Origin: Sinomicrobium sp.
GTDB lineage: Bacteria; Bacteroidota; Bacteroidia; Flavobacteriales; Flavobacteriaceae
Length of the DNA: 64,000 bases
Assembly (NCBI GenBank): GCA_029266035.1
Contig: JAJUFH010000016.1
Coordinates: 1 to 64,000, forward strand
Direction: 5' to 3'
Each line of letters begins with the position of its first letter. Within the stretch, counting starts at the first letter, position 1. This document shows, piece after piece, positions 28,091 to 54,090 of this stretch. A model generated the notes under the pieces. That model did not search any database. It was not told the DNA's origin and saw nothing but the letters and a program-made list of their open reading frames with translations. The translations under genes were made by a program, and so were the position numbers.

Positions 28091-29773
28091 CTACACCCTC
28101 TTATAAGGTGGTAACCTTCTATAGATCGCGTAAGAGATCAATCCTACCACACCCCCTATGGAAAGCGTTATCCACAATGCCTTACGGTCGGCCATCAGCG
28201 CCAGGATTATAAATATAAATGCCGTTACAGCCATTGTCCTGGCCAGTACCAGTAACCCAAAGTTGTTCTGGGTCTCGCTGCTCTCTTCCCCCTCGGAAGT
28301 ATCTGCCTGATCTACATCTACAGCGCTGCGGTGAACGGATTGATAATGGAGATAATCGCCCGGCATCCTTTTCCCTCTTCTGGCCTGTACTTCATAGATA
28401 CCAAGAAGCGCAAACGGGATAAGAGCCCCTGCCAGCATTTCTTCCGTCCTGTTCAGTGAAATACCGGTTAGAAGCGGATGTAAAAACTTAAAGTAGATAT
28501 TCAGTGACAGTCCCAAAATAGTACACCACAAAATAGACTTCCCGGTATGATACTTTGAAAACAAGGCCCAAACAGGCGGACCGTAGAGCGAACATCCCGT
28601 TACAGCACCTACACTCAGTACAATTTCTACGATTCCGCCGGCAGAAGGTACCAACAAAGCCACGCCAATCGTCATAAGTCCAAATACAATAACAGCCAGT
28701 TTCGCAACCAACATCAAACGGGCAGGACGGGTATCCGGGTGTACCGTCCGATAAAGATCGTTGGTAAATACGGCTGCTGCCAGGTTAAGGGTAGTATTGA
28801 CAGAACTGGCCGTTGCAAAAACCATCCCGCCCAACATCAGTCCTATCAACCCTTCCGGCAGCACCTCCTTACACATCAGCAAATATGCCCCTTCACTCTC
28901 TAACCCAGACAAACCGGGGTTTACCAATCGGTATATCATGGGAGGCAGCATCCAGATTAGAGGACTGACTAAATATAGCGCGGCAAAGAGATAGCCTACT
29001 TTTTTTGCCGATGTAGGACTATTTACACTGGTATACCGCTGTACATAAGCCCAGTTTCCGCCTATAAAAACACCGTTATATACCCCGAATGCCAATAAGA
29101 ACAACCAGGAATATTCTTCATTTATCGGCATAAAAAAATCCTCCGGTGCATTGCGGAACAGGGCCTCTACCCCTCCTATACTGTCAAAAGCCAGTGGAAC
29201 CACAATAATCACGGCACCCGTAAGTACGATAAACTGTAACACATCCGTAACCATAACCCCCCAAAGTCCGCCTACCACCGTATAGATAATAATAAGGATC
29301 CCTAATACCAAAATACAGGCTTCTATGGGAAATCCTGTCGATACGTTGATGATCTTGGCTACGGGATAGAGAAAGGCTCCGGTATACATCAGCGATATCA
29401 GCAGAATAAGGTAACTGTAAAATTTCTGTATTGTTATTCCAAGTCGCTGAGATACAAACTCTGCAGCTGTCAGTGCCCGCGATCGCTGCCAGGCGGGTGC
29501 GATAAACATTCCGACAAAAAAACCGCCCAGACACATCGTGAGCTGAATAGCCACTGATACAAAACCGTACTCATAGGCTATGGAACCCCATACTACAAAG
29601 GTTCCCGCAGAAAAAAAACTCATAAACAGAGACAGCGAACTGATTTGCCATGGTACTGCGCCTCCCGCAGCGAAATAAGACTTCATCGAATTGCCCGTTT
29701 TTCCAAAAGAAAGCCCCGCCATTACTATAATGCCTGCAAAGACAAACATTACGATATAATCCAAAATTCCCAT
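28091..29773 (-). CDS. Sodium/solute symporter (SSS family), last PUL gene
   Basis: A protein of about 560 residues with some 13-14 membrane helices and the SSS (SLC5) pattern: MKSYFAAGGAVPWQISSLSL near the N-terminus, then SRALTAAEFVSQRLG and GGLWGVMVTDVLQF, a core signature of the family. The open frame reaches 29848, but I start at ATG 29773 (MGILDYIVMFVF), 10 bases after the oxidoreductase stop; the longer N-terminus would overlap that gene. It should import a monosaccharide or other PUL end product with Na+ across the inner membrane. A hydrophilic loop near residues 455-490 is rich in D, E and S. Confidence 0.88.
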   Translation of the reverse strand: MGILDYIVMFVFAGIIVMAGLSFGKTGNSMKSYFAAGGAVPWQISSLSLFMSFFSAGTFVVWGSIAYEYGFVSVAIQLTMCLGGFFVGMFIAPAWQRSRALTAAEFVSQRLGITIQKFYSYLILLISLMYTGAFLYPVAKIINVSTGFPIEACILVLGILIIIYTVVGGLWGVMVTDVLQFIVLTGAVIIVVPLAFDSIGGVEALFRNAPEDFFMPINEEYSWLFLLAFGVYNGVFIGGNWAYVQRYTSVNSPTSAKKVGYLFAALYLVSPLIWMLPPMIYRLVNPGLSGLESEGAYLLMCKEVLPEGLIGLMLGGMVFATASSVNTTLNLAAAVFTNDLYRTVHPDTRPARLMLVAKLAVIVFGLMTIGVALLVPSAGGIVEIVLSVGAVTGCSLYGPPVWALFSKYHTGKSILWCTILGLSLNIYFKFLHPLLTGISLNRTEEMLAGALIPFALLGIYEVQARRGKRMPGDYLHYQSVHRSAVDVDQADTSEGEESSETQNNFGLLVLARTMAVTAFIFIILALMADRKALWITLSIGGVVGLISYAIYRRLPPYKRV

Positions 29774-29783
29774 AGTAATTTTT

Positions 29784-32186
29784 TTAACGGTAACAACGAA
29801 GTCCGAACAATGCAGCTGGGACATTTGCTGACGGATGATCGAGTTCAATTGTCAGTTCGCCGGTTGTTATCGGATATTCCAAAAACACATTATTAATCGT
29901 CTGATAATTTCCCTTTTTCTCATATACCACATTCCCACTGTCGTCTAAAATACGATAATTCCTTACACAAAAAGGCATTACATCTTCCGGATGTCCCATC
30001 AATACGCTTTCCATGGGATGATCGTAATCGGTGTCGAAAAACAGATCTATCCGGCTTATCTTTTGAGGGTGTTCCCAACGGATACGAGCAGTTGGTTTCT
30101 CGTCCGCTAAGTCTGCTACCCAAGCATTTGGGGTCGTAGTAGGCCTGTACACTCCCTTGCGGATATTCTCCTTGCCAAAAGGATTTAACGGTGGATTGAT
30201 CTGAATGGCTATATTGTGTCCTTCCGGTCGTCGTTGAGGACACCAAAACTCGAAGGTATCCATACCTATGTTGTCAGGAGGGGATTGCTTTCCGAAATTT
30301 GACACCGCTTTATTTCCCAAGTTAAATGTCGATAATATCCCAGTGAGGCGAAGCGATGAACGAAACAGTTCTACATTCGGGTTTTTATGTAGAATGAGAA
30401 AGACATAAGCCTCGTCTTCCATGCTTGTGGAAAATTCAAACTTGACCTTCCTATGCCCTTGTTCTATATCCACCGATTGTGTTTCCAGAATAACATCCGG
30501 GGTAAAATTACCCTTTCTTGAACTGGTTCTCAACTCAATATTCAAGGTGGTGTTGTTTAGTGCGATCAGATCTATAGTCATTGAAGGTACCTCTCCCGAT
30601 TTCAGAGGAATCATCTGAGCTACAGCTATATCCATCGGAAGTACAAAATCGGCATTGAGATTGTCTATATAAAAAGTACTCGATACTTCTATGCTAGCCT
30701 GCTGTACGAGGTCGGACTCATCGCAAAGGACAAGCCCGGGAATATACTGCCCACTTTTGAGTAATTCCCGCTGCAAATCGCCGATAAAACCTTTATCTAT
30801 TATATCTCTGGGTTCTAAATAGGCTTGTGCAGAATAAATTTCGCTTCTTTCCTCATTGCAAGCTGTTGTTTTCACAAGGTTCTGCCCTGAGACTTTTTGG
30901 TATTGACACTGTTGCTCTGTCACCGCAAAAATCTCTTCTTTCGATGCGTTTTCTCTGGCAATATAAGCTGCCATTCCCACAACCTGTCCGATATAGGCCG
31001 AAGTAGCCATAACCCGGGTAGAAGCAAAAGCCACATGAGTAGTACTGATAATACGCCCCGCAAGGAAAAGATTTTTGATGTTTCTGCTGTACAAACAGCG
31101 GTATGGTATCTGGTATATTCCCTTGGAGTGCCATTGGTTGCAGCCCGGTTTTTCGCTAAACACCCCATCTGCTGGGTGAAGATCGATAGACCACCCTCCA
31201 TAAGCCACAGCGTCGTCGTAGGTCTTTTGATTGACAATATCCTGTTGCCGCAATATATAATCTCCTTCAAACCTTCTGCTCTCTCGCTTGCCCGGAATCA
31301 TTCCTACCCATTCGAGGGTCATGGTCTCTGCCTCCGGATATTCTCCTGAATTCTTGATATAATCCCACGCTCCATACACGATTTTCCACAGTTCCCATTT
31401 AATCTTTTCGGTATCGTGTATCGTATCCATCCGTCCCCCGTATTCCAACCACCAGAGTTTACACCCGTATTCCTTGGCATTAAAGCTCCTGAATCTGGGG
31501 ATCTCCTTGCGTACATCCATTGCAAAATCCGGGGCCTTATACTTTACTGGTCTTCCGGTATCTTTGGTGTAAAAGTAGAGACTGTGCCCCAACAGTTCTC
31601 CGTATTCCTCGGCAGGTGCAAACTTCTCTCCGAATTCCTCCTGTCGTTCTGCTCCCATCCTGAATGCCGCTCCCGAAAGAAAACCTACGATACCATCGCC
31701 CGAAGCATCGCAAAACAAAGGGGCATGAATCATATATTCGGTAGAATTCTGGCTACAGAATCCCTTTACTGCTTTTATCCTCTCTGCTCCCGATTTGTAC
31801 ACCTCATAGACTGCTGTGTTTAACAACAGTGTTATATTGGGCTCTTTCTTTACTTTATCGAGCAATATCATATCGAGGATCAGAGGATTCCCTTCCTTAT
31901 TTTGGTGCATATTTTCCACCAGAATCTCATCGATAACCCCTCCCTCACGGCTCCACCTGTTGTTGTTGCCGAGGTGGGAAGTAGCGCCCAGGATCCACAG
32001 GCGAATTTCACTGGATGAATTTCCCCCCAATACCGGCCTGTCTTGAACCAATACCACTTTAACACCCTTCCGCGCCGCCGTAATGGCCGCACACAGCCCG
32101 GAAAGTCCACCGCCTATAACAGCGAGCTCCGTGTGATGAACCTCAGATTTTAATGCCCTTTTTAATTCATGACCTTTCTTTATCAT
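29784..32186 (-). CDS. FAD-dependent oxidoreductase with C-terminal beta-sandwich region
   Basis: An 800-residue protein. The N-terminal two-thirds (about residues 18-430) is a FAD_oxidored (PF12831-type) domain: dinucleotide loop AVIGGGLSGLCAA, then DRPVLGGNSSSEIRLW, FCDASGDGIVGFLSGA and, near the end, NLFLAGRIISTTHVAFASTRV. The last 350 residues are beta-rich and look like two non-catalytic sandwich modules, the last one discoidin-like. I see no signal peptide (MIKKGHELKRALKSEV), so it is probably cytosolic, unlike the neighbouring hydrolases. Related proteins are frequent in PULs for complex or modified glycans but their reaction is largely undefined; oxidation of a sugar hydroxyl is plausible. 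It is coupled with the symporter 10 bases downstream. Confidence 0.82.
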   Translation of the reverse strand: MIKKGHELKRALKSEVHHTELAVIGGGLSGLCAAITAARKGVKVVLVQDRPVLGGNSSSEIRLWILGATSHLGNNNRWSREGGVIDEILVENMHQNKEGNPLILDMILLDKVKKEPNITLLLNTAVYEVYKSGAERIKAVKGFCSQNSTEYMIHAPLFCDASGDGIVGFLSGAAFRMGAERQEEFGEKFAPAEEYGELLGHSLYFYTKDTGRPVKYKAPDFAMDVRKEIPRFRSFNAKEYGCKLWWLEYGGRMDTIHDTEKIKWELWKIVYGAWDYIKNSGEYPEAETMTLEWVGMIPGKRESRRFEGDYILRQQDIVNQKTYDDAVAYGGWSIDLHPADGVFSEKPGCNQWHSKGIYQIPYRCLYSRNIKNLFLAGRIISTTHVAFASTRVMATSAYIGQVVGMAAYIARENASKEEIFAVTEQQCQYQKVSGQNLVKTTACNEERSEIYSAQAYLEPRDIIDKGFIGDLQRELLKSGQYIPGLVLCDESDLVQQASIEVSSTFYIDNLNADFVLPMDIAVAQMIPLKSGEVPSMTIDLIALNNTTLNIELRTSSRKGNFTPDVILETQSVDIEQGHRKVKFEFSTSMEDEAYVFLILHKNPNVELFRSSLRLTGILSTFNLGNKAVSNFGKQSPPDNIGMDTFEFWCPQRRPEGHNIAIQINPPLNPFGKENIRKGVYRPTTTPNAWVADLADEKPTARIRWEHPQKISRIDLFFDTDYDHPMESVLMGHPEDVMPFCVRNYRILDDSGNVVYEKKGNYQTINNVFLEYPITTGELTIELDHPSANVPAALFGLRCYR

Positions 32187-32204
32187 AACATAATTTTATT
32201 TATC

Positions 32205-33767
32205 TCAATGTAATTTAAGTTCCTGTATTTTACTATCGGATTTTCCTCTGAGCTCCCTATACTTTTCCTGCATTGCTTTTAGTTTATCTGGATGTTTTTC
32301 TGCAAGGTTATGCTGTTCACCCGGATCTTCTGCAAGATTATACAACTGATAGGATTTCGAGATTCCCATTTCAATATTCACCTGTTTTTGAACTGCTTCC
32401 CCTGGATACGGAGGAATCATCACCCAATCTCCGTTCCTGAGGATAGTTCGTGATGTCCCTTCCAGGATAAGGCTTTCCCGGCCTTTATTGCTTTTACCGA
32501 GAAATACATCCATGATATCCTTGCTATCAGTTTCAGTAACATTCTGACCCGTAAATTTTGCCAATGAAGCCAGTAAATCTACCTGGCAGACTATAGCATC
32601 GGACACCTGAGGTTTAATTTTCCCTTTCCAATAAACGGCGAATGGAATCCGGAACCCAGCTTCATATATACTGTATTTTCCACCTCTCAACGGACCTCCC
32701 GGACGATGATCACCTGCCTTTTCCACAGCCTCATCATAGTACCCATCATTTAGCACAGGACCATTGTCACTTGTAAAAATGATTAATGTACTTTCCAATA
32801 AACCTTCTTCTTCCAGTGTTTTAACAAGTGTACCTATACAGGCATCTGCTTCCACAATGACATCTCCCCGGGAACCCATATCCGTTTCCCCTACAAATCT
32901 GGGATGTGGTGTTCGAGGCACATGAGGCTGTTGCATCGCGTAATAGAGAAAAAAGGGTGATTTTTTTTCCCGTACAAAGGACTGCGCCTGGGCAAGAAAA
33001 GTGTCTGCCATCTCCTCGTCTACCCATTTTGCAGACTCACCGCCTTTCATATAACCTATTCTGGGAATACCGTTTACGATACTCTGATTATGTCCGTGAT
33101 GCCACTTCATTTTCAGTAATTCCGGATTGTCGAGCCCAGTAGGTTCACCCTCAAAATTATGTTCGTAACTCACCTGAATAGGATCATCCGATTCCAGCCC
33201 TACCACCTTGCCATTCTCTATGTATACCGTGGGTACACGATCCTGAGTTGCGGCCATTATAAAAGCTTCGTCAAACCCAACTTCATTAGGTCCGGGACTT
33301 ATATGTTCATTCCAATCTACCTGTCCTGTTCCCAGCCCCAAATGCCATTTCCCTATAATTCCTGTATAGTATCCTGCCTTTTTAAGCATCTTGGGCAAAG
33401 TTTGCTGGTTGGTATCAATAATAAGCGGAGCTGTTCCAGGCAGGATCTTTGCATCACTGTTTCTCCAGGGATATACTCCTGTAAGCAAGGCATACCTACT
33501 CGGAGTACAGGTTGAAGAGGTGGCATACCCATTGGTAAAACGAATGCCGTTTTCTATAAGGTAATCCATATTCGGGGTTGGTATTCCTTCCGCTCCGTAA
33601 GCTCCAAGATCGCCATATCCTAAGTCATCCATATTTATAATTACAATATTCGGAAGTGTGGAATCAGAGTTAGGTGTTTCTCTCAACTTTGAATTACAAC
33701 TTCCAAGAAAGAGTAGTACAATCCCCACATTTAATACTGCTACAATCTGACATATTTGTTTTTTCAT
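32205..33767 (-). CDS. Family S1 sulfatase (PUL sulfatase 3), lipoprotein
   Basis: A 520-residue sulfatase that hydrolyses sulfate esters. The formylglycine site is C87 in STCTPSRYALLTG, maturing through an anaerobic or FGE-type maturase not seen in this window. Metal-site motifs NMDDLGYGD and FTSDNGP are present. The signal sequence ends in a lipobox (LFLGSC, Cys 24), so it is a periplasmic or surface lipoprotein. The C-terminal subdomain has the usual YNLAEDPGEQHNLA motif. It lies 73 bases after the beta-helix gene. Which sulfate position it removes cannot be read directly. Confidence 0.93.
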   Translation of the reverse strand: MKKQICQIVAVLNVGIVLLFLGSCNSKLRETPNSDSTLPNIVIINMDDLGYGDLGAYGAEGIPTPNMDYLIENGIRFTNGYATSSTCTPSRYALLTGVYPWRNSDAKILPGTAPLIIDTNQQTLPKMLKKAGYYTGIIGKWHLGLGTGQVDWNEHISPGPNEVGFDEAFIMAATQDRVPTVYIENGKVVGLESDDPIQVSYEHNFEGEPTGLDNPELLKMKWHHGHNQSIVNGIPRIGYMKGGESAKWVDEEMADTFLAQAQSFVREKKSPFFLYYAMQQPHVPRTPHPRFVGETDMGSRGDVIVEADACIGTLVKTLEEEGLLESTLIIFTSDNGPVLNDGYYDEAVEKAGDHRPGGPLRGGKYSIYEAGFRIPFAVYWKGKIKPQVSDAIVCQVDLLASLAKFTGQNVTETDSKDIMDVFLGKSNKGRESLILEGTSRTILRNGDWVMIPPYPGEAVQKQVNIEMGISKSYQLYNLAEDPGEQHNLAEKHPDKLKAMQEKYRELRGKSDSKIQELKLH

Positions 33768-33840: not shown

Positions 33841-35613
33841 TTACTCATTATCTATTACAAGTACTCCAGAATTGCTCTCCTGGTCGGCAACAATGGTCTC
33901 CTTTACCTGTCGGAATACATTTTCCTTGATAAGGAGATTGAGTGTCCCACTGGCTACGATACCTTTTTCTCCATGTGTTATTGTATTTCCTATGACCTGA
34001 ATATTTGTTATCGGGGGAGATGTCTTGTTCAATTTCTCCAACGCCTTTTCCCTATCAAAAAAGATCAGCCCCTCCCCTTCTTCCTGATTGCGTATTCCAA
34101 TCGCACCAGTAATCCCGTGCCGAGACATCCAGCCCGAATGAGATATTTTATTGTGTTCTATCCTCACATTTTTAGGTACCGTCCCTTCTCCTTCATTTAT
34201 GGCTGCTCCTATCATGATCGCGGGATACATAATATGATCAAAAGTGTTATTTACAATGGTAACATTGGTATTCCTGATCAAACTGGCACATCCCGCAATA
34301 TTCCTGAATACAGAGTTGCTCAGGGTATAATCGTCAATATTCCACCCGTATATCTGGCAGAGAGTTTCGTCGTTAATGAAGTCTGGTATTTTCTCCTCAA
34401 AAGTCACAAGAAAACCTCGATCTCCACTTTCCGTAGGCTTCATAACGGCTTTACGCACGGTACACAAGACTTCCTCCGAACCATTCCAGAAACCGATTCG
34501 GGAACCTTCCGGTATGGGAAAAGCCGCTCCCTTTTTCTTCTTCAACCATACCGTATGCCCATCCATAACCCGGTGTGGCCAGAGAAAAGAGCCGTGAACA
34601 TTCTGTCCGTCCCAACGTACTCCTTCCATATATAGCCCATCCATCACGATCTTACCTCGACAGGCATATAGTTTCCATCCGTCTCTGGATCCTACGGTCA
34701 ACTGATTATCCGGAGCTATCACCTTAACTTTCCTGGCGGTAATATTTTCACAAGCCTCGGCCCTCATACAGAACCCGATCGCATTGTAAGTCCATACATT
34801 TTCTACCGAAAGGTCATCGCACATATAGAAATTTACCTGTATTCCCTTATACGAAAAGTTCCAGCTCAGTCCGTCACCGACCTCCACCATAGCAGCAACC
34901 CGCGGAGAATTCAACGTCATAATACGCTGTTCCGGATTCCCCTGTACATGCCAGGTATATTCTTTTTTTCTCTTATTCACATCACCGCCATAAGTCGGGC
35001 TTTCCACCTTTTTCAGGGTTTTCGAAGCGAGGTCCCAGATATTGCTCGTATAAAACAATGTTCCGTCTATGACGGGGTTTCCTTCAAACACCTTTAACGT
35101 AACCGTATTCCCGTCCGTAGCGATAACTTCCCCTGCCGTGGAATATCTCGGGCTATTGTCGAAAATAACGTTCTGCAGACCAAAATGTTTACTCCGTCGT
35201 ACAGATAGGATAGGTTTGCCGTACATATCATTTTTAAAATCGTAATGGCGTAGAAAAGTGGTCGCGGGATCTCCCTTGTCATCTATACCACCTTTCAGGG
35301 TAAAATCGTTCATCCCGGTGATATCGATAGCCATTTTCCCGGAGGCATCGCCTACAAATAAATCATACGTTCCTGCTTCCAGCAGCAACGCTCCTGCTTT
35401 TACCGTTTTGGCATGATCCAGTGCTTTTTTTATAGCTACCATATCGCATTTCCCGTCGTCAGGTATTGCACCGAAATCGGCAGCCTTGACAATTTTGTCC
35501 TGTGCCTGGACTGCATGAAGCCCTATCATACCGCCCATAACGGCGAATATTAATCCCATCAGTAATCTTTTGTGATGTATTTCTTTATGTTCAGTTTTAT
35601 GCCTGGTTTCCAT
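33841..35613 (-). CDS. Secreted right-handed beta-helix protein, GH110-like
   Basis: A 590-residue protein with a signal peptide (about residues 16-38, ending AVQAQ) and a right-handed parallel beta-helix with the pectate-lyase-like opening VKAADFGAIPDDGKCDMVAI. The region DGWKLYACRGKIVMDGLYME (from D311) followed by GVRWDGQNVHGSF (D335, N338, H340) resembles the active-site stretch of GH110 alpha-1,3-galactosidases, which reads roughly DG...RG...DDxxNxHG. Here the first Asp of the DD pair is Trp. A GH110-type exo-alpha-galactosidase would suit a galactan PUL, but a lyase or another beta-helix glycosidase is possible. It lies 9 bases after GH97. Confidence 0.7.
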   Translation of the reverse strand: METRHKTEHKEIHHKRLLMGLIFAVMGGMIGLHAVQAQDKIVKAADFGAIPDDGKCDMVAIKKALDHAKTVKAGALLLEAGTYDLFVGDASGKMAIDITGMNDFTLKGGIDDKGDPATTFLRHYDFKNDMYGKPILSVRRSKHFGLQNVIFDNSPRYSTAGEVIATDGNTVTLKVFEGNPVIDGTLFYTSNIWDLASKTLKKVESPTYGGDVNKRKKEYTWHVQGNPEQRIMTLNSPRVAAMVEVGDGLSWNFSYKGIQVNFYMCDDLSVENVWTYNAIGFCMRAEACENITARKVKVIAPDNQLTVGSRDGWKLYACRGKIVMDGLYMEGVRWDGQNVHGSFLWPHRVMDGHTVWLKKKKGAAFPIPEGSRIGFWNGSEEVLCTVRKAVMKPTESGDRGFLVTFEEKIPDFINDETLCQIYGWNIDDYTLSNSVFRNIAGCASLIRNTNVTIVNNTFDHIMYPAIMIGAAINEGEGTVPKNVRIEHNKISHSGWMSRHGITGAIGIRNQEEGEGLIFFDREKALEKLNKTSPPITNIQVIGNTITHGEKGIVASGTLNLLIKENVFRQVKETIVADQESNSGVLVIDNE

Positions 35614-35622
35614 ATCTGTAAA

Positions 35623-41054: not shown

Positions 41055-41057
41055 CAC

Positions 41058-42482: not shown

Positions 42483-42508
42483 GCTTTTAACAATCATATT
42501 TACCTGTT

Positions 42509-45103: not shown

Positions 45104-46627
45104 TTATAGTTTATCTCGCACACACCGTATAGAATACCCTTCGCGATTGCTAATAATACTTCTATGGATATGTTCGGTTCGCGTATCCTCTAATATCCGT
45201 CTATAATTTTGCGTCAAAGGAGTTGTTTCATTGGGAGAGGATGTCCAGAAATAAGCTCTGTTATTGAAATTGTTGAAATTCCCATTTACATCCCTTCCGC
45301 CGGCTGGTAAGGCCTTAAAACCAAGATCATCTGTACCGGGATTTACAGGCCAGTCTGTCTCACTGCGCAGCATAAGACCTCCTACACCTCTCCAACCCGT
45401 AGCATCTGTCTGAGCCTCTGTAAAGCCTATCGCCTGTTCCAAATCCTTAAGATCCTCATCAGTAGCCACTCGCCAACCGGCAGGTGCTAGCCCCCTCTCG
45501 TCCATAACGGCAAAACCATTATACAACAGTCCATATTCAGCTATCATCTGTTCTTCCGAATCAATATTGGCTACATCTTCAAATGGATACACGGCATACG
45601 CCCCCAAACGTCCATTGCTATATGTAGCCGACCATTCGACGGCAGAGAGTCCGGTAGAAATCAGTGCACCGTTCCTGTACCGGGTTACTTTAAGGTTCTC
45701 CACCATCCATTCCTTATCTCCGATAACTACAGTGTTGTATACATTGCCATCAATATCCGTCGCTGGTTCGTCTTCATCTATAAACCACGCTTCCATAGAC
45801 CAGGTAGTTTGTTCTACTCCAGCCATATTGTCTGCCTGTACTTCACCAGTCATGATTTCACTCAACGCTTTTGCCTGGTAGCCCATAGCTATATCACCAT
45901 GATTCAACTCCCCGTTACCGTCAATATCAAGGTAAGTAGTGGCATAAACATAAGAGCGGTCCTCTACATTATCCAACGATAAAGTGAAGCCATTTGCGAT
46001 GTCTTCTCCACTCAACACTCTTGTCACAACAGCATCGGGTTCACGTTCAAAAAAAGTGGCTTCCTCTGCATCTGCATAATACAGGTTAAATTTCAGTACC
46101 GTTTCGACCACAGGAGGAATAGGAAATTCAAATGCAGCCTGAAATGGAACCAGTGCAGTGTATACTTCACTCATTTCAACGGTAAGAAACTCGCGATGAG
46201 ATACATTGCTGGCTTGGGCATTACCTTTCATCACTTCTCTCAGACTATGTTCGAAATAGCATGTTGCCACATCTCCTTCGCTCAACATCTCATTACCGTC
46301 TATATCGGCAAAGGCAGTCACATACGCAAATCTGTTCCGGTCCAGACCTTCAATAGGCAATGTAAAGCCATCTTCAATATCCGTCGCTGTCAATATCCGC
46401 TCAAACACCACGTCTGGGTTTCGTTGGTAGAAAGGCTCGTTTTCCTCTTCGGTATAATACAACTGGAAAAAAAATACAGTTTCAGGTTCAGGCTTAATCG
46501 CAAAACTCACATTGATATCCAATGTTTCTGCGATAATTTCCTCCTGATCAGTTTCTTTTTTACATGCTCCTAACAGGAATATCCCGAATAAAAGAACAAG
46601 TAATTTACATTGTTTTATCCATTCCAT
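45104..46627 (-). CDS. PUL lipoprotein with duplicated EF-hand-like modules and C-terminal FISUMP domain
   Basis: A 507-residue lipoprotein (lipobox LGAC, Cys 22) in the position normally held by SusE/SusF glycan-binding proteins. Two homologous modules (about residues 35-155 and 165-275) each end in a calcium-loop-like sequence, DIDGNEMLSEGD (108-119) and DIDGNGELNHGD (234-245). The last part (about 288-507) is a Fibrobacter succinogenes major paralogous (FISUMP) domain: DIDGNVYNTVVIGDKEWMVE, later PAGWRVATDEDLKDL, RDVNGNF, and the end SIRCVRD. It is probably surface exposed and binds the PUL substrate; binding is inferred from position. Confidence 0.82.
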   Translation of the reverse strand: MEWIKQCKLLVLLFGIFLLGACKKETDQEEIIAETLDINVSFAIKPEPETVFFFQLYYTEEENEPFYQRNPDVVFERILTATDIEDGFTLPIEGLDRNRFAYVTAFADIDGNEMLSEGDVATCYFEHSLREVMKGNAQASNVSHREFLTVEMSEVYTALVPFQAAFEFPIPPVVETVLKFNLYYADAEEATFFEREPDAVVTRVLSGEDIANGFTLSLDNVEDRSYVYATTYLDIDGNGELNHGDIAMGYQAKALSEIMTGEVQADNMAGVEQTTWSMEAWFIDEDEPATDIDGNVYNTVVIGDKEWMVENLKVTRYRNGALISTGLSAVEWSATYSNGRLGAYAVYPFEDVANIDSEEQMIAEYGLLYNGFAVMDERGLAPAGWRVATDEDLKDLEQAIGFTEAQTDATGWRGVGGLMLRSETDWPVNPGTDDLGFKALPAGGRDVNGNFNNFNNRAYFWTSSPNETTPLTQNYRRILEDTRTEHIHRSIISNREGYSIRCVRDKL

Positions 46628-46667: not shown

Positions 46668-48293
46668 CTATTGGCCTATGGCCTTATTGGCATCCAGTTC
46701 TGCTTTCGGAATAGGCCATTGATACGATTTTGAAGCATCGAATGAACGTTGGAGTACGGTATATACCTCATACTCCATATTATTTGTTCTAGGCGAAAGT
46801 TTTCCCGGCTTGAAACCTCGCAAGTCTCCAAAGGCCTGCTCCCCGATTTCCCAACGCATAATATCGAATATCCGCAATCCCTCAAAAGCAAGTTCTACCC
46901 GTCGTTCATGACGAATTACATCAATCAGTGCTTCAGGGGACAACCCCACCCCTTCTACATCTTCAACCTTTGGCATCATTACATCGGGACGCTGACGAAC
47001 CTGATTGATCAAATTATATACCTCAGCTTCATCATAGCCCCCTTGCTCTACTAGGGCTTCTGCTTCCATAAGTAACACATCGGCATAACGAATGATTACT
47101 GGATTTACCCCAGATATATTATTGATTCCATTATCGGAAAAATCCACGTATTTTCTCACCTTGAAACTGGTAAAATTGGCTGATGCTTGCTGAGAAGGAT
47201 AGTAGACAATTGGTTCTCCTGTTGTCAGGTGATAATCTCTTATCGAATACGGAAAAACAAGGGAGTAATACAGACGGGGATCCCGATTCTGAAAACGATT
47301 GTCATATCCACCTTCCTTGATGTAATTGGATGGAGCCGCAAGACCGGTTGGTCTTATCGATGGGTCGTACAGTTCGTTATCCGGATTATTAATAGACAAT
47401 CCGTTGGTAGAATAAAACTCTTCATACAAATTGTGATCTACCTGATACCCGCTCCACGAACGAAAGCGCGTGTACCATATATTTGACAATCCGAACTGCG
47501 CAGCATCCTTCTCGAATTGCATATCGAAAATAACTTCCTTATTATCTACCTCACCTTCAGGTAGAAAAAGGGAAGAGTAAGTAGACATAATCTCATATAC
47601 CCCCAATTCTCTTACCTTCCTGCAATAATCTGCTGCCTCTCCGTAACGATGATTAAATAACAACACACGAGCTTTTATGGCAAGTGCGGCTCCCTTTGTG
47701 GCTCTCCCTCTATTGTCGGCAGAATAACTGGGAGGAAGAATTTCTGAGGCTATTTCTAAATCGTCTAATACCATTTGAACAATATCAGCGTGAGAAGTTA
47801 ATGGCTTATCTGCTTCATCAAGTCCTTCGGGTTCAAGACGAAGCGGAACATCTCCGTAGAAAAAGGACAGGTCGAAATAGGCAAGTGCTCTTAAGAAAAG
47901 GGCTTCTCCCTTAAACTGATCATAGCTCTGTTGCGACATCACCACTTCATCGATATAATGCAATACTGTATTGGCTCTAAGAATAACTCTATAATTTCGT
48001 GACCATTTATCTACAACCTGTTTCGTTTCGTTGTTGAAATTACCTGTCCACAATAATTGATAATCCACATAATACCCATTATCTGTTATAAAATCTGTAT
48101 AAATAGGTTCCTCTAAGTTTGATATATAAGCTTTGTAGATTCCGTTTACTGCTTCCTGTATGTCTCTTTCAGTACTAAAATTATCGGGGGACAGAAAATC
48201 TATAGGTTCCCTGTCCAGAAACTGGTCGTCACAGGCTGAGCCAAGAACCAGAAACATAACTGCAACCCAACTTTTAATAAATATCTGTTTCAT
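46668..48293 (-). CDS. SusD-family glycan-binding lipoprotein
   Basis: A 541-residue surface lipoprotein (lipobox GSAC, Cys 21, then DDQFLDREP, the usual SusD start). It has the alpha-helical TPR-like scaffold (for example FKGEALFLRALAYFDLSFFY) and the C-terminal RagB/SusD motif region ending in YQWPIPKAELDANKAI. It forms a lid on the SusC barrel and captures oligosaccharides. It follows SusC after only 5 bases. Sequence decides the family, not the glycan. Confidence 0.96.
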   Translation of the reverse strand: MKQIFIKSWVAVMFLVLGSACDDQFLDREPIDFLSPDNFSTERDIQEAVNGIYKAYISNLEEPIYTDFITDNGYYVDYQLLWTGNFNNETKQVVDKWSRNYRVILRANTVLHYIDEVVMSQQSYDQFKGEALFLRALAYFDLSFFYGDVPLRLEPEGLDEADKPLTSHADIVQMVLDDLEIASEILPPSYSADNRGRATKGAALAIKARVLLFNHRYGEAADYCRKVRELGVYEIMSTYSSLFLPEGEVDNKEVIFDMQFEKDAAQFGLSNIWYTRFRSWSGYQVDHNLYEEFYSTNGLSINNPDNELYDPSIRPTGLAAPSNYIKEGGYDNRFQNRDPRLYYSLVFPYSIRDYHLTTGEPIVYYPSQQASANFTSFKVRKYVDFSDNGINNISGVNPVIIRYADVLLMEAEALVEQGGYDEAEVYNLINQVRQRPDVMMPKVEDVEGVGLSPEALIDVIRHERRVELAFEGLRIFDIMRWEIGEQAFGDLRGFKPGKLSPRTNNMEYEVYTVLQRSFDASKSYQWPIPKAELDANKAIGQ

Positions 48294-48298
48294 AACTT

Positions 48299-51200
48299 CT
48301 AAAAATTAAGATTTAGACCTAAGGAAAGACTTGCTATTTGCGGGTGAAAGGCAGCAGTCATTCTGGTGTAGCTCCGCTCCGGATCAAAACCCTCAATAAA
48401 CGGGCTAATCAACAACAGGTTCTCTCCATTCAGAAAAATCCTGCAACGGTTTAGATCAAAATGTTTTACCAGTTTTTCAGGTAAGTCATATCCAAGTTGA
48501 ACACTTTTAAGCCTAAAAAACGATGCGTTGTAAATATTATAACTGGTCACAAGGGCATCTCTTGTCTTATCGACATACAAGCGTTGATATTGATTAGAAG
48601 GATTTTCATAAGTCCATCGTTTCTCCACAATCTCCGTGCGTAAAGGGCCATTAGTATTGAAAAAGGGAGAAATCAGTTTGCCATTCATGTAGGCATCCTG
48701 TCCCTGAACTCCATGACCTATGATATTTAGGCTAAATCGTTTATAAGACAAATCGACACTAAATCCGTATTGCAATTTAGGTAAGGGATTTCCTATAAGT
48801 ACACGATCGTCAGGAGTCACTGTTCCATCTTCATTGGTATCAGCCATTTTAATATCTCCTGGTGCTGGTGTATCCATCAAATTGGACTGATCGGGATAGC
48901 CTTCCTTTAACACATATTCGCGTTCGGTATGAGGTATTGCTGGGTCACTGTCGTGTTGCCATACAAAATCTGATACCTGATAAATTCTTTCAACTTTATA
49001 ACCATAAAATGATGAAAAAGGATGTCCTGTCACACTTCTTGTGTTGTCAGTATGATCTACAAATGACAATCCGCCGAGATCGGTCAGCTCGTTATTGAGA
49101 AAGGTCAAATTTCCAGAAATACTATAATTTAACTTGTCCTTACTATGGGGAGAACTATATCCTATGGTAAGTTCTATTCCTTTGTTGATCATAGTACCTA
49201 TATTCTGATAAGGCAATGAACTCACCCCGAGTGACGGAGGGATGGTTACACGTGCAAGGATATCATATGTTTTTTTCTTAAAAATATCAGCCTGCAGGCT
49301 AAAGCGATTCCACAGAACCAAGTCAAGTCCGAAATTTATCTGCTCTGTAGTTTCCCACCGTGTCTCTTGGTTGGCCAGAAGTACCGTTCCCCTCCCAGGA
49401 ACAATGCTGTTCCCGAAAGCGTAATATTCCTGTCCGCTCATCTGATCAGCAAAAGCGTATTGAGACCATATGTTCTGATTTCCTAAACGTCCCCACGATG
49501 CTCTGAGCTTTAAGTTTACGAAATTCCACTTATTGAAAAAATCTTCCTGGCTCACTCTCCAAGCGGCTGAAACCGAAGGAAAGTTTCCCCAGCGGTTTGG
49601 ACCAGAAAATCGGGAAGAGCCATCCCTTCTGAAATTCAACTCTAGTAAATACTTGTCGTCATAACTATAATTTAATCTGCCAAAATATGAAGACGTAGCA
49701 TATTCATAGGCCATACTGTTCAAATAGAGAGTAGTAGGATCTCCGTAATTAAATATCGGTGCATTACTGGATAATTCCCGTACCGATCCATCATCCCGTT
49801 TATAGCTTACTTCCTGCTTTTCGTGAGCAAGCATAATCTGAAAATTGTGCTTGCCTATATCAAGAGCATAATCAAGGGAAAGCAAAAGTGTATTCAGGTT
49901 TCGTTCAGAAAAACGTTTTTCCAAAGAGGACTGCCGCTTATTGATAGCCCCTTCCAAAAAGTCTCCGGCTGTATAGAACTCCGGCGACAGGTTTACATAA
50001 TCATTGGTAGTCCTATTATTGGAAACCAGTATCTTTCCTTTCAGATTCCTAACCGGCTCCAGCTCGGCAGATGCTCTCGACATGATACCATTCGATTTTG
50101 AATCGATACCTCCTCCCAATCTGTTTGCTGCCAGGTATCTCGCATTGTACCCGTAAAGATTCGGGTTTCCCGTAATACTATCTATGGAACGTACAAATGA
50201 TACCGGAGTCATCCCCGCTATTTCAGCCATCACCGTGTTTGTCGGCGAAATGAGTTCTTCTACACCTTCCCGGTATCCTACAACCCCAACCCTAAGATTT
50301 AATTTTTTATCAAAAAAAGAGCCTGAGAGATTACTGTTAAACGAAATACGTTTTGCGGAGGTTCCTATTAATATTCCTTCTTGATCTTTATATGTTATGG
50401 AATTTGAAAAACGGTAATTTTTATTTCCTCCCCGAAGGGCTACATAATGATTTTGCATCTGTCCCTGTCCGAAGTATTCATCATACCAATTAGTATTAGG
50501 ATTTCTCGGATCATCCTGCAATCTGAACGACTCAACCCTTTCATCACTATACACAGGTGGCTGCCCTACATTCTGTCGAGCCTCATTAATCAAGTAGGCA
50601 TATGTGTAAGAATTTACAGTTTTAGGAAGACGGGTAGCTCGACTCAGCGAAAGCGTACCACTGTATTCCACTTTCAATCCACCTCCATCATCCACACCAC
50701 TTTTGGTTTCTATCACAATAACCCCAGCAGAGGCTCTTGACCCATAGATGGCTGCCGAGGCTGCATCTTTAAGTATCGACATGGAAGCAATATCATAGGG
50801 ACTTACATCGTTCAGACTACCCTGTACGCCATCTATGATAACCAAAGGTTCATTGTTATTGTCTATCGAAGACACCCCTCTGATCCGTATTTCCGCCATA
50901 TCATCACCGGGTCTTCCCGAATTCTGGACTACTCCCATACCGGCCACTTTCCCTTGTAATAATTGATCGACAGTAGTCAACGATCTACCTTCTGCCTCAT
51001 CTACTGAAACCGATGTAACTGCTCCCGTAAGGTTTGCTTTTTTCTGTGTACCATACCCGACAACCACTACTTCATCTAAAGCAGCTACGTCCTCCTCCAA
51101 TGTTATATCTATCCGATTCCTACTATTTACTTCAACCTCCTGTTTGCTGTACCCTATATAACTAAACACCAGTATCGCATCGGCAGTGACAGTAAGGGAA

Positions 51201-51376
51201 TAATGCCCATCCAAGTTGGCCACTGTCCCATTTGTGGTACCCCGTTCTACAATATTAGCAAAAGGGATAGGCTCGCCATCCATGTTTGTAATTGTTCCGG
51301 AGACCTCAATATCCTGTCCCCAGACACCACTCACACATAGACATGCGAAAATTATCAGTAAATATTCTTTTTTCAT
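48299..51376 (-). CDS. SusC-family TonB-dependent outer-membrane transporter
   Basis: A 1,025-residue outer-membrane protein: signal peptide (about residues 1-20), N-terminal CarboxypepD_reg-like domain (about 25-100, VSGTITNMDGEPIPFANIVE), the SusC linker DEVVVVGYGTQKKANLTGAV, a plug domain (about 120-220) with IRIRGVSSIDNNNEPLVIID and ASAAIYGSRASAGVIVIETK, and a 22-strand barrel ending in aromatic ...LGLNLNF. It imports oligosaccharides into the periplasm using TonB/ExbBD energy. The 66-base gap to the GH16 gene has no visible promoter, so one transcript from the head of the locus is likely. Confidence 0.97.
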   Translation of the reverse strand: MKKEYLLIIFACLCVSGVWGQDIEVSGTITNMDGEPIPFANIVERGTTNGTVANLDGHYSLTVTADAILVFSYIGYSKQEVEVNSRNRIDITLEEDVAALDEVVVVGYGTQKKANLTGAVTSVSVDEAEGRSLTTVDQLLQGKVAGMGVVQNSGRPGDDMAEIRIRGVSSIDNNNEPLVIIDGVQGSLNDVSPYDIASMSILKDAASAAIYGSRASAGVIVIETKSGVDDGGGLKVEYSGTLSLSRATRLPKTVNSYTYAYLINEARQNVGQPPVYSDERVESFRLQDDPRNPNTNWYDEYFGQGQMQNHYVALRGGNKNYRFSNSITYKDQEGILIGTSAKRISFNSNLSGSFFDKKLNLRVGVVGYREGVEELISPTNTVMAEIAGMTPVSFVRSIDSITGNPNLYGYNARYLAANRLGGGIDSKSNGIMSRASAELEPVRNLKGKILVSNNRTTNDYVNLSPEFYTAGDFLEGAINKRQSSLEKRFSERNLNTLLLSLDYALDIGKHNFQIMLAHEKQEVSYKRDDGSVRELSSNAPIFNYGDPTTLYLNSMAYEYATSSYFGRLNYSYDDKYLLELNFRRDGSSRFSGPNRWGNFPSVSAAWRVSQEDFFNKWNFVNLKLRASWGRLGNQNIWSQYAFADQMSGQEYYAFGNSIVPGRGTVLLANQETRWETTEQINFGLDLVLWNRFSLQADIFKKKTYDILARVTIPPSLGVSSLPYQNIGTMINKGIELTIGYSSPHSKDKLNYSISGNLTFLNNELTDLGGLSFVDHTDNTRSVTGHPFSSFYGYKVERIYQVSDFVWQHDSDPAIPHTEREYVLKEGYPDQSNLMDTPAPGDIKMADTNEDGTVTPDDRVLIGNPLPKLQYGFSVDLSYKRFSLNIIGHGVQGQDAYMNGKLISPFFNTNGPLRTEIVEKRWTYENPSNQYQRLYVDKTRDALVTSYNIYNASFFRLKSVQLGYDLPEKLVKHFDLNRCRIFLNGENLLLISPFIEGFDPERSYTRMTAAFHPQIASLSLGLNLNF

Positions 51377-51442
51377 TCCTCAAAGTTTTAGTCTGTGATT
51401 AACCGGTGTATTCTTATGCTGATCCTTTTTATTTTATTCCTT

Positions 51443-52849
51443 TTATGGATTGATATGCGAAACATTCTGAAAGCCTCCTATACCCTCGGGCTGAAAAGTC
51501 AGGTCGGTAGTCAACAGAAGTCTATCACATCTGGCAAAATATTGAGAACTGTCGTAAATATCTAATATATTAATTCCTTCTTCGAGGGTAAAATCTCCAC
51601 CTGACTGCCATTCATACCCCACTTCCCCATGTGTACCAAATTCTGTGGGTGAAGATTCTCCATTTACAATAACCTTAAATTTTCTTACTCCCTGTTGGGT
51701 ATCAAAATCTCTAGAACGCACCCATAATCTATACACTCCCGAAGTTTCCACTTCTACAGCCGTTCGAGCCGTGAGGTCAGTAGAATCCCTAGTAGCATCA
51801 AAACTCGAAAACCCCTTTACGGCTACCGTGTGATCTATGTCTCTTTCTACAGTCCAGTTATTGATATTCACAAAGTCTTCGGATTCAATCCACAAGTCAA
51901 TACCCTCAGACTCCTGTGGTCCCCTCAAGGAATCTAGGTATTGTAGAAATTCCACTTTCCTGATGTCGTATTGGGCTGGACTAATATTATAGGCACGAAC
52001 ATAGTCTACAGCCATAGCACCACCATCTGTTGCACCTACTTCGGTTGCAATAGAGGTAATCCACAGGTATATATCATGTTGGGGAGCACTACGGATATCA
52101 ATAGTTTTTAATATATCCCCGTCAAAAAAGAAATTGATATAATCGGGAGTATACTCAAAACCATAAGTATGAAATCCCTGAGACAAATCTGAAGAAACTT
52201 GGTGCACTCCGGCACCTATCGACCCTTTTGACGATGAAGTTCCTCTAAGTGTCGACCAATCTATAGCTCCATAGCGAAAAACATTATTGGCAAAATCTCC
52301 ATAATGTTCAAAACAATCAATTTCTATTCGCGCTCCAGTGCTATCGGCATATATAGGATTAGGATCGTCAAAACCACTTCTTCCTACCGCCCAAAAAGAC
52401 TCGTGCCAACCAAATCCGTCATCCATTTTTGCACTAATCTCGTAATATCCATAACTATCAGGTTGCTTGGTGATAATCCCTCCCCCGGTAAACGGCTTAT
52501 TCTGATAGCTTTCCTCTTTTAACAGTATTTTCAGGGTATCATTATCTACCATTACATTTTCAGGGCGCTGACAACTCTGACTTTTACAGTCTGTACGATA
52601 CCTCCATCTGATGCTGTCTAGTGCAGACCCATCGAAATTATCTTCCCATACCAACGTATATCCGGGTATAGGAGAAGTTAGCGTAATAGCATCTTTACCA
52701 CTTAACTTTTCGTTCCTTTCAAAGGAAGGCTCTTCACACCCTATTGCGAAAACAACTATCACAATAAAGGGTAGAATCATTAATCTCCCAACAGAGAGAT
52801 AAATCTGTTTGAATAAAAGTTCCGGTTTCATAAATTGATTGGTTTTCAA
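51443..52849 (-). CDS. GH16 endo-glycosidase lipoprotein with C-terminal carbohydrate-binding-like domain
   Basis: A 468-residue lipoprotein (lipobox AIGC, Cys 38). The GH16 jelly roll (about residues 58-290) starts at YTLVWEDNFDGSALDSIRWR and contains the catalytic motif EIDCFE (nucleophile E176, assisting D178, acid/base E181), the six-residue ExDxxE form with the beta-bulge typical of agarase-, porphyranase- and carrageenase-like members. GYYEISAKMDDGFGWHESFW is characteristic. The tail (about 310-460) is a beta-sandwich resembling golvesin-type binding modules. It probably cleaves the polymer at the cell surface. Subfamily and substrate (agar, porphyran, carrageenan) are not decided by eye. 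First gene of the leftward operon. Confidence 0.9.
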   Translation of the reverse strand: MKTNQFMKPELLFKQIYLSVGRLMILPFIVIVVFAIGCEEPSFERNEKLSGKDAITLTSPIPGYTLVWEDNFDGSALDSIRWRYRTDCKSQSCQRPENVMVDNDTLKILLKEESYQNKPFTGGGIITKQPDSYGYYEISAKMDDGFGWHESFWAVGRSGFDDPNPIYADSTGARIEIDCFEHYGDFANNVFRYGAIDWSTLRGTSSSKGSIGAGVHQVSSDLSQGFHTYGFEYTPDYINFFFDGDILKTIDIRSAPQHDIYLWITSIATEVGATDGGAMAVDYVRAYNISPAQYDIRKVEFLQYLDSLRGPQESEGIDLWIESEDFVNINNWTVERDIDHTVAVKGFSSFDATRDSTDLTARTAVEVETSGVYRLWVRSRDFDTQQGVRKFKVIVNGESSPTEFGTHGEVGYEWQSGGDFTLEEGINILDIYDSSQYFARCDRLLLTTDLTFQPEGIGGFQNVSHINP

Positions 52850-52882
52850 ATGGTGTTATTAGAGTGTAGTTTAAAATTTTAG

Positions 52883-52995
52883 TCTGGTTTGGAGTGGTCT
52901 GTTTTGTATTGCAATGATAAATGAATAAATTGTAATCGCCAAATTTTTGTCTTAAAAATTGTGATTTTATTAATTATTCTGGTTTGGTCTGATCA
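52883..52995. promoter_or_regulatory. Candidate operators for the GntR-type regulator
   Basis: The 215-base gap between the divergent GH16 and regulator genes contains TCTGGTTTGG twice (52883-52892 and 52978-52987). Each copy is followed closely by TGGTCTG (52895-52901 and 52985-52991); the second continues to the imperfect palindrome TGGTCTGATCA. Two copies about 90 bases apart in the shared regulatory region are what operators of the adjacent regulator would look like. No experimental support. Confidence 0.4.
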
Positions 52996-53064
52996 TTTTT
53001 TTGCTTGGAATACTCAAAAGCAATAAATTTGCAAATCATTGACTAATCCGTAAATCTTACTCAT

Positions 53065-54090
53065 TTGAAAGAAGTTCCGCATTCCATATCAAATAATACG
53101 GTCAATCTTCACCGCCTCAAGTATATGCAACTGGTAGATTATATCATGACTCTGATCGGGGAAGAAAAATTGGACATCAACGATCGCCTGCCCTCTCTCA
53201 ACCAGCTCACCCGTACTCTGAAGATCAGTAAGGAAACCGCATTGAAAGGACTTAATTACCTCTCGGAAAAGGGGATTATAGAATCGGAATATCGCAAGGG
53301 ATACTATCTCAAACGAATCAAACAGCACCTGCCCTACAGGGTATGTCTAATTCTGGATAAAATGAATATTCTCCGAGACCGGGTATATCATTCTTTTCTG
53401 GAAACCATAAGAGATCATGCCGAAGTAGAAGTCTTCTTTCACCATCACAATTTCAAGGTATTCGAAAAACTTATAGAAGAAAATCTGAACAACTATACAC
53501 ATTTTGTCATTGTCACCTTTTTCAGGGAGAGCCCTATGGCTGTACTCAATAAAATACCGCCACAAAAAAGAATTATTATAGACCACCGTGAAAGCGGACT
53601 GGAAGGTGAATATACCAGCATATATCAGGATCACCGCTCAGACATCCAGAACGCACTCTCGGAATTATTGCCTCAACTGGAAAAATATAAACGGCTGCTG
53701 TTGGTAGCTCCCCCCGAAGCGCTGCACTCCAACGATCTTATCGAAGGATTCGAAACCTTTGCCTCCCGATACGACAAAGAACACACCGTTATCCACGGAG
53801 TAGAGGAAAAGATGGTAAAAAAAGGAGATGCCTTTATTACCTTCGATCGCTATGACAAAGACGACGTGGATATCATTAAGATTGCGAAGATAAAGAACTG
53901 GCAATTGGGAAAAGACATCGGTCTTATTTCTTATAACGATACCGCAATCAAGGAGGTACTTGAAAACGGTATTACCGTGATCAGTTCCGATTTTTGTAAA
54001 ATGGGAAGGGAAGCCGCCAAGGCTATTCTCAATCACACCACTGTTACTCTTCGCGATCCGGCCAGGGTTATTATTCGCAACTCATTATAA
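53065..54090 (+). CDS. GntR-family regulator with LacI-type ligand-binding domain
   Basis: A 341-residue transcription factor. An N-terminal winged helix-turn-helix of the GntR type lies at about residues 15-85, with LPSLNQLTRTLKISKETALKGL as the recognition region and LSEKGIIESEYRKGYYL as the wing. The remaining 250 residues form a periplasmic-binding-protein-like (LacI/GalR) sensor domain, for example GLISYNDTAIKEVLENGITVIS near the end. Such regulators of Bacteroidota PULs respond to a sugar or oligosaccharide released from the substrate. It is divergent from the PUL and most likely controls it. Confidence 0.88.
   Translation: MKEVPHSISNNTVNLHRLKYMQLVDYIMTLIGEEKLDINDRLPSLNQLTRTLKISKETALKGLNYLSEKGIIESEYRKGYYLKRIKQHLPYRVCLILDKMNILRDRVYHSFLETIRDHAEVEVFFHHHNFKVFEKLIEENLNNYTHFVIVTFFRESPMAVLNKIPPQKRIIIDHRESGLEGEYTSIYQDHRSDIQNALSELLPQLEKYKRLLLVAPPEALHSNDLIEGFETFASRYDKEHTVIHGVEEKMVKKGDAFITFDRYDKDDVDIIKIAKIKNWQLGKDIGLISYNDTAIKEVLENGITVISSDFCKMGREAAKAILNHTTVTLRDPARVIIRNSL

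Follow-up and report, generated by a model that had tools for sequence, protein, structure and literature searches.

We analysed a 64,000-nucleotide stretch of Sinomicrobium sp. DNA (contig JAJUFH010000016.1; hereafter the window), which carries between positions 28091 and 54090 a polysaccharide utilization locus (PUL) rich in sulfatases. Comparison with its relatives distinguishes three parts in this PUL: a galactan core, a block of accessory sulfatases and, as a fixed frame, a regulator, a flavin adenine dinucleotide (FAD)-dependent oxidoreductase and a symporter. The genes are of mosaic ancestry, and two species of the genus carry entirely different PUL interiors at the same chromosomal site. 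This division provides a testable route to the gain and loss of sulfated-polymer use. As to the substrate, we lean towards a sulfated galactan in which the alpha-linked unit is ordinary galactose without an anhydro bridge.

Gene content of the locus

The genome comprises 3.05 Mb in 51 contigs (96.8% complete), the contig of the window measuring 66,235 bp. Gene families were assigned from the list of open reading frames (ORFs) and from matches to Pfam, NCBIfam and the PDB; S1 subfamily labels denote the nearest solved PDB structure by sequence match. As a first-pass annotation of the sequence had described, families included, the locus consists of 14 genes on the minus strand and one divergent GntR-type regulator on the plus strand. 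Adjacent susC and susD genes accompanied by co-directional carbohydrate enzymes, including several glycoside hydrolases (GH), identify it as a Bacteroidota PUL. The genes are the following.

53065–54090, plus strand: GntR-type regulator, divergent from the PUL, whose sensor domain resembles periplasmic binding proteins (PF00392 and PF13377, Peripla_BP_3)
51443–52849, minus strand: GH16 endo-hydrolase with the motif EIDCFE and a conserved C-terminal domain of about 140–160 residues (PF00722, 14-sequence alignment, fold)
48299–51376, minus strand: SusC-like TonB-dependent transporter (Pfam)
46668–48293, minus strand: SusD-like lipoprotein with a GSAC lipobox-like motif (PF07980)
45104–46627, minus strand: Fib_succ_major (FISUMP) lipoprotein with an LGAC lipobox-like motif; accessory (PF09603)
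42509–45085, minus strand: GH2, probable exo-beta-galactosidase (PF02836/PF02837)
41058–42551, minus strand: S1 sulfatase nearest S1_19 (4-sulfated galactose of carrageenan); accessory (PDB 6bia 1.7e-105, 6prm 9.3e-105)
39624–41057, minus strand: SGNH hydrolase (Lipase_GDSL_2), probable esterase; accessory (PF13472)
39100–39447, minus strand: small LTXXQ/Spy-like protein; accessory (PF07813 below cut-off, 21.6 vs 24.3 bits)
37579–39021, minus strand: S1 sulfatase nearest S1_8A (galactose-2-sulfate monosaccharide); accessory (PDB 9bb9 9.8e-97)
35623–37566, minus strand: GH97 of the retaining alpha-galactosidase type with a lipobox-like FYAC (PF10566, PDB 3a24 8.6e-44)
33841–35613, minus strand: GH110-related beta-helix protein with Trp334 at the general-acid position (PDB 7jw4 1.9e-12)
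32205–33767, minus strand: S1 sulfatase nearest BT3109 (S1_15, 6-sulfated galactose) (PDB 7ozc 2.7e-193)
29784–32186, minus strand: FAD-dependent oxidoreductase (FAD_oxidored); core (PF12831 8.8e-93)
28091–29848, minus strand: SSS-family sodium:solute symporter (PF00474, SSF, 4.8e-36)

Matches of the sulfatases and glycoside hydrolases are strong, apart from the GH110 link, which depends on the 7jw4 match (E 1.9e-12); the match of the Spy-like gene is weak. The listed TTG start of the symporter overlaps the oxidoreductase gene, and its true start is likely internal. The FISUMP lipoprotein is possibly a surface glycan-binding protein; its N-terminal part holds two domains in tandem that share 41% identity over 111 residues, and the DIDGN...GD loop present in each is calcium-binding in appearance.

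Core, accessory block and frame

The genome collection contains 13 relatives of the window GH16, two of them from one metagenome-assembled genome (MAG), and at E 1e-40 this rare type was present in one of 395 sampled genomes of the phylum, namely the window's own. Two genomes of the same genus, G003 and G004 (G040 is probably G004 again and was not counted separately), keep the core order, with a GntR regulator beside GH16-SusC-SusD-GH2-GH97-GH110-like-S1_15-FAD oxidoreductase-SSS. No FISUMP, S1_19, SGNH, Spy or S1_8 gene was seen in these two loci, S1_15 being their only sulfatase. The order in Parapedobacter sp. SGR-10 is GntR, a 456-residue ORF, then GH16-SusC-SusD-FISUMP-GH2-S1_19-SGNH-(distant beta-helix)-Spy-S1-GH97-GH110-like-GH110-like; further on, its contig also carries S1_15, at a distance of about 35 kb, and the oxidoreductase-symporter pair, at about 60 kb. 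The S1_19-SGNH-Spy-S1 block between GH2 and GH97 is common to the window and Parapedobacter.

Eight genomes of other genera were compared: SGR-10, Parapedobacter tibetensis, Pedobacter sp. ISL-64, Chitinophaga, Niastella, a Spirochaetes MAG, Pedobacter hiemivivus and Bacteroides sp. 51. Pedobacter hiemivivus has GH16-SusC-SusD-LacI-GH97-GH2-SASA esterase-FAD oxidoreductase-SSS, with a GH16 of 282 residues that is devoid of the C-terminal domain, and tblastn over 40 kb gave no match for the sulfatases of the window, all three of which were queried. The core genes are spread over about 36 kb in Pedobacter sp. ISL-64, where no sulfatase was seen; Bacteroides sp. 51 has GH97-GH2-SusCD-GH16 behind an oxidoreductase fragment, and the Chitinophaga, Niastella and Spirochaetes loci hold only part of the core. 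Several sulfatase matches were found in SGR-10, and a single S1_15 remnant in P. tibetensis. GH16, SusC/SusD, GH2, GH97, the FAD oxidoreductase and the SSS symporter form a core that recurs in other genera and, because it does so in some of them without any sulfatase seen, the sulfatases are accessory to it.

The P. tibetensis remnant (L072:14950-15715) has lost residues 159–379 and changes frame near residue 446; it gives the impression of sulfatase loss in progress. The SGR-10 stretch (G041:C23; L045-L047, L100-L102) spans about 94 kb, perhaps as several clusters, and carries 12 ORFs that are sulfatase-like by similarity to those of the window, three GH110-like proteins, SGNH and SASA esterases, and the oxidoreductase-symporter pair at its far end. 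A cluster in the Spirochaetes MAG (G046:C21; L009/L080) of GH16, SGNH, a Golvesin/beta-helix protein, a distant FAD oxidoreductase (27%) and GH42 echoes the window's combination in another phylum.

The ancestry of the genes was assessed by counting the sites at which the window agreed with G003 against those at which it agreed with SGR-10, sites being taken as independent and rates as equal. The window was nearer to G003 for GH16 (82:33), SusC (145:70), S1_15 (81:13) and the FAD oxidoreductase (84:41), with a weaker affinity (p 0.01–0.03) for GntR (39:19), SSS (45:26) and the GH110-like protein (70:44). It was nearer to SGR-10 for GH2 (50:177) and GH97 (27:109), and even for SusD (55:57). When these two genomes were compared, counterparts of S1_19, SGNH, Spy and FISUMP were present only in SGR-10. 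The S1_19-like and SGNH genes each have a 77% orthologue in Parapedobacter; the best match of this sulfatase in five other genomes of the same genus is only 40–43% identical. The S1_8-like sulfatase has no close counterpart in G003 or SGR-10 (39% in the latter). For SusD, no genome compared was nearer to the window than P. tibetensis (80.6%), which for SusC was roughly level with G003.

Trees placed the window oxidoreductase with that of the same-genus genome G002 (100/100) inside Sinomicrobium (99/98), and the window GH97 with SGR-10 (99/99). The groupings of GH2 with SGR-10 (94/99) and of GH16 with Sinomicrobium (93/95) were both just under the support threshold, and the window SusC and SusD were placed without support. 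The locus is a mosaic in which GH97, GH2, S1_19 and SGNH are nearest to Parapedobacter, and GH16, S1_15 and the oxidoreductase to Sinomicrobium; from these comparisons, the replaced lineage could be either one. GC content ranges from 0.39 to 0.47 over 20–62 kb with a peak at 42–44 kb, and the borders of the mosaic show no sharp step.

The same chromosomal site was found in G002, where eight left-flank proteins are 57–93% and two right-flank proteins 88–91% identical to those of the window. The slot (G002:C33:150000-185000; L094/L095/L105) keeps GntR (88.6%), the FAD oxidoreductase (82.8%) and the symporter (85.8%). Its interior is another PUL: SusC and SusD are only 31% and 27% identical to the window's, and with them come an exo/endonuclease-phosphatase-like protein, FISUMP, a protein of 864 residues to which no family was assigned, GDPD and a single S1 sulfatase. 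For the window type of GH16, G002 gave one match, and not a close one (2e-10). The frame of regulator, oxidoreductase and symporter looks inherited; the depolymerising set differs. A Fic-domain gene (DUF4172 and Fic; 54195–55304) adjoins the PUL regulator in the window, and no match to it was found at the border of the G002 slot.

The GH110-related protein and the FAD oxidoreductase

The first-pass annotation had counted two candidate alpha-galactosidases, GH97 and a GH110-like protein. The GH97 stands up as a candidate. It shows three Pfam GH97 domains and retains the KVDFMD motif of the retaining alpha-galactosidase 3a24, whose Asp we take to be the GH97 nucleophile; at the column of this Asp, where 5e1q has Gly, the window protein has Asp. 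The protein is distant from 3a24 (E 8.6e-44; NCBIfam 213.7 bits vs a cut-off of 800), and we regard it, on these motifs, as a good candidate for an alpha-galactosidase.

The GH110-like protein keeps its label as far as sequence similarity (7jw4) goes, but its active site differs. For PdGH110B, D344 has been put forward as the probable general acid, with D321 and D345 as the bases (PMC7939477); galactose stacks on W486. We aligned a clade made of the window protein, the near-identical proteins of G003 and G004, and three copies from SGR-10. The D344 column holds Trp in all six members, from four genomes, and Asp in 14 of 14 GH110-type relatives; the W486 and R453 columns are invariant in the same 14 relatives and lost in all six clade members. 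R453 is replaced by Cys442 in the window protein, whereas W486 falls on Glu474 with MAFFT or in a gap with phmmer, which makes its placement less sure. The equivalents of D321 and D345 are kept in all six members, those of N348 and E488 in five, and all four in the window protein. A parallel beta-helix may be present, given a PF13229 match and similarity to PDB sequences; the model predicted from the single sequence had a pLDDT of only 34.6. With the general acid and two residues of the −1 subsite lost, the protein was discarded as a second ordinary alpha-galactosidase, and a plain GH110 annotation is disfavoured.

Set against the GH110 family (PdGH110B, 7jw4), the window protein shares similarity along the beta-helix and the equivalents of D321, D345, N348 and E488; it differs by Trp334 for D344, Cys442 for R453 and the loss of W486. 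A similarity search would nonetheless label this clade GH110 alpha-galactosidase despite the missing acid. The clade is rare: five of the 395 sampled phylum genomes gave a match, a close one only in the window's own, and nine of 251 sampled genomes of the Parapedobacter family, a close one only in SGR-10.

These losses might mean that the protein has ceased to be an enzyme and, catalytically dead, serves for binding, an explanation that is compatible with any of the substrates considered below and that we hold to be possible, though the less probable one. It would account for the Trp in place of the acid and for the missing W486 and R453 equivalents throughout the clade. Yet the bases are conserved in every member, N348 and E488 in nearly every one, and copies from the two genera are still 60–74% identical (no more than 28% for the third copy in Parapedobacter). 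Together, the conserved residues and the identity across genera suggest that an activity, possibly a different one, has been retained.

Orthologues of the FAD oxidoreductase, 61–83% identical over the whole protein or the FAD domain, were found in 10 of 11 genomes queried, G001 being the exception. Taking the window and the 11 strongest oxidoreductase matches (two weaker ones were left out), the symporter adjoins the oxidoreductase at 10 of 12 loci and lies about 9 kb away in the same cluster in G044; no symporter was seen within 20 kb in G045. GH16 and the oxidoreductase share a contig in seven of nine genomes (the window's own, G003, G004, G041, G042, G043 and G048), 26–85 kb apart in three of these, and are on separate contigs in G044 and G045. 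No signal peptide was visible by eye in the oxidoreductase, its PDB matches were limited to weak ones of the nucleotide-binding domain to flavocytochrome c, and our searches found no published link between PF12831 and polysaccharide utilization.

Tentatively, and with doubt prevailing, we propose that the GH110-related protein stands at the head of a new family, whose catalytic apparatus is a different one and cleaves a modified (for instance sulfated) galactoside, and that the oxidoreductase and the symporter make up a transferable cytoplasmic 'exit module' performing an undescribed oxidative step on the sugar released by many PULs. Such a module, if real, would explain the fixed position of regulator, oxidoreductase and symporter around an exchangeable set of depolymerising genes.

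A family of proteins of about 825–865 residues recurs on contigs with the oxidoreductase-symporter pair (L096:1805-4282, L074:14282-16870, L105:3191-5785, L100:14923-17511 and, as a GH97 fusion, L072:220-4605); where scanned, it showed a weak likeness to GH88/GH127 barrels or no Pfam match. Two further related families, of about 920–945 and 1120 residues, occur on some of these contigs.

Substrate and relation to carrageenan loci

The GH16 has the ExDxxE spacing in its motif, with E176, D178 and E181 invariant among 14 aligned sequences, and its AlphaFold model (mean pLDDT 77.3, pTM 0.63) matched the beta-jelly-roll of GH16 structures with Z 23.5–26.5 (VIA-align/Foldseek). FAIGC near residue 38, noticed by eye and not flagged by a simple pattern scan, makes it a possible lipoprotein. 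Residues 306–468, the C-terminal domain, have no Pfam match. This domain recurs near the N-terminus of two proteins of about 1120 residues (L096:4282-7632, L074:10863-14273) and of a second FAD oxidoreductase (L072:6932-8725), and may be a shared binding module. For GH2, the closest NCBIfam models are the beta-galactosidases GalA and GalB, with scores far below the cut-offs.

All three S1 sulfatases carry the C-x-P-S-R maturation motif, and the genome encodes an FGE-type maturase (1.3e-87), the radical-SAM maturase model TIGR03942 finding no match in it. The best match of the 32205–33767 protein, 7ozc (2.7e-193; next 5.9e-159), is BT3109, an S1_15 sulfatase (PMC10154620) that is given as acting on 6-sulfated galactose (PMC10154612) and whose group is listed as acting on 6-sulfated galactose or N-acetylgalactosamine (PMC10154620). 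Read on the alignment, the galactose-recognizing Asp-Arg dyad and His of BT3109 (PMC10154620) fall in segments near-identical to the window protein. The 41058–42551 protein matched an endo-acting and an exo-acting enzyme almost equally (6bia 356.9 bits, 6prm 354.5 bits), both S1_19 carrageenan 4-sulfate sulfatases (S1_19A/B; PMC6923384). F103 of the 'aromatic shelf' by which S1_19B would recognise anhydro sugars aligns with a Phe by position count; Y455 and Y458 lie beyond the end of the alignment. The 37579–39021 protein matched 9bb9 at 9.8e-97 and, as the next distinct enzyme, 9bbd at 2.4e-66; 9bb9 is an S1_8A enzyme to which specificity for galactose-2-sulfate was assigned from structure in the paper that deposited it (PMC12549532).

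Beta-galactose (GH16, GH2), alpha-galactose (GH97) and a sulfate on O6, here also on O4 and O2, lead to the substrate that we favour. The sulfated galactan put forward in the first-pass annotation is also our best reading of the hydrolase and sulfatase families, and the absence of an anhydrogalactosidase that it had reported agrees with the Pfam matches: each of the 14 minus-strand genes matches some family other than GH117, GH129 or GH150, and GH127 (PF07944) gave a single sub-threshold match in the genome (18.2 vs 24.9 bits), GH117 and GH129 being excluded in this way for the locus genes and not genome-wide. The G003/G004 set would suit a galactan with alpha-linked 6-sulfated units, and the window set one with 4- and 2-sulfates too; the alpha-galactose could belong to the backbone, its place in carrageenans, instead of forming a branch. 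Mu-, nu- and gamma-type patterns, the last being those of gamma-carrageenan, have a 4-sulfate on the beta unit and a 6-sulfate, with or without a 2-sulfate, on the alpha unit. The best-fitting polymer might accordingly be a non-cyclised carrageenan-type galactan (mu/nu/gamma-like), a choice that we make only tentatively. Mu- and nu-carrageenans are non-cyclised precursors without the anhydro bridge (PMC7511586).

We infer the following course for such a substrate. GH16 would cut the chains, and SusC/SusD and the FISUMP lipoprotein would bind and import the pieces. The periplasmic steps would be the removal of the 6-sulfate by S1_15, of the 4-sulfate by S1_19, of the 2-sulfate by S1_8 and of an ester by SGNH, with GH97 and GH2 trimming alpha- and beta-galactose in turn. 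The symporter would take up the liberated sugar, the oxidoreductase would act inside the cell on this sugar or on a derivative, and the GntR-type regulator would sense a product.

Several observations weigh against this assignment. The specificities are those of sequence neighbours of the sulfatases and hydrolases, and the GH110-like protein and the oxidoreductase fit no assigned reaction. Structure leaves the GH16 tied between laminarinases, carrageenases, porphyranases and the mucin O-glycanase, with laminarinases marginally ahead, and the 37579–39021 protein, since it resembles a monosaccharide-specific 2-sulfatase, would say little about the polymer. No sulfatase match was found near the GH16 relative in six of the eight other-genus genomes, within the 19–40 kb searched (58 kb for ISL-64), so that sulfatases further off are possible. 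The genera with sulfatase-free GH16 loci are mostly non-marine, and for both reasons the backbone may be another galactan. It could be a terrestrial, freshwater or microbial one, from a plant, an invertebrate or a bacterial exopolysaccharide, and be sulfated only sometimes, the sulfatases being opportunistic additions. The sulfatase-free cores of Pedobacter hiemivivus and Pedobacter sp. ISL-64, the Bacteroides sp. 51 cluster and the P. tibetensis remnant all speak for this origin, which we consider unlikely but a serious contender; it is opposed by the three sulfatases of the window locus with their galactose-type neighbours, though related enzymes may have shifted substrate.

Two known carrageenan systems come close to the locus, and both share part of its enzymes. 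A lambda-carrageenan PUL (G2S-D2S,6S) like that of Pseudoalteromonas distincta U2A, with GH16 in place of GH150, is improbable. The nearest structures and Pfam do give S1_8, S1_15 and GH2 in the window, and these, with a GH110-type protein, all belong to the U2A cascade (PMC12549532). However, the locus has no room for GH150, all 14 genes matching other families (no model search or genome-wide search was aimed at it), and the GH110-type protein is devoid of its catalytic acid; lambda-carrageenan was rejected as the exact target. Furthermore, the window has one S1_8, nearest to a monosaccharide enzyme, against three in the U2A locus, the cascade as excerpted from the same paper contains no S1_19, and the G003/G004 loci lack S1_8. 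A kappa/iota-carrageenan or furcellaran PUL acting on anhydrogalactose is more improbable still. The 41058–42551 sulfatase is nearest to kappa/iota 4-sulfatases and kappa-carrageenase is among the best PDB matches of GH16, about level with laminarinase. Yet GH127 is nowhere over its cut-off in the genome, no GH129, GH167 or Dau-type gene is among the 14 (the search for these was confined to the locus), and the excerpts of PMC12549532 do not name S1_15 or S1_8 for the kappa/iota pathway. Kappa/iota-carrageenan was likewise rejected as the exact target.

The mismatch with known carrageenan loci, already pointed out in the first-pass annotation, is borne out by these gene sets. The sulfatases are nearest to enzymes of different pathways and the GH16 is tied between subfamilies, so that they do not converge on a single known substrate; literature searches, including one for the combination of GH110, GH97, sulfatase, GH16 and galactan, returned no PUL with the window's gene set and nothing joining Sinomicrobium and carrageenan; for oxidoreductase, symporter and GH97 together they gave a paper on Latescibacteria. 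With the kappa/iota PULs of Pseudoalteromonas and Zobellia, as excerpted (PMC6923384, PMC5698469), the window shares only GH16 and S1_19; it differs from them by S1_15, S1_8 and a GH97 of the alpha-galactosidase type, and by having no GH127, GH129, GH167 or Dau-type gene among its 14. With the U2A lambda-carrageenan PUL, again as excerpted (PMC12549532), it has in common S1_8, S1_15, GH2, a GH110-type protein and the absence of anhydro-sugar enzymes. In contrast to U2A, the window has GH16 instead of GH150, and it adds S1_19, GH97, SGNH, the FAD oxidoreductase, the SSS symporter and SusC/SusD.

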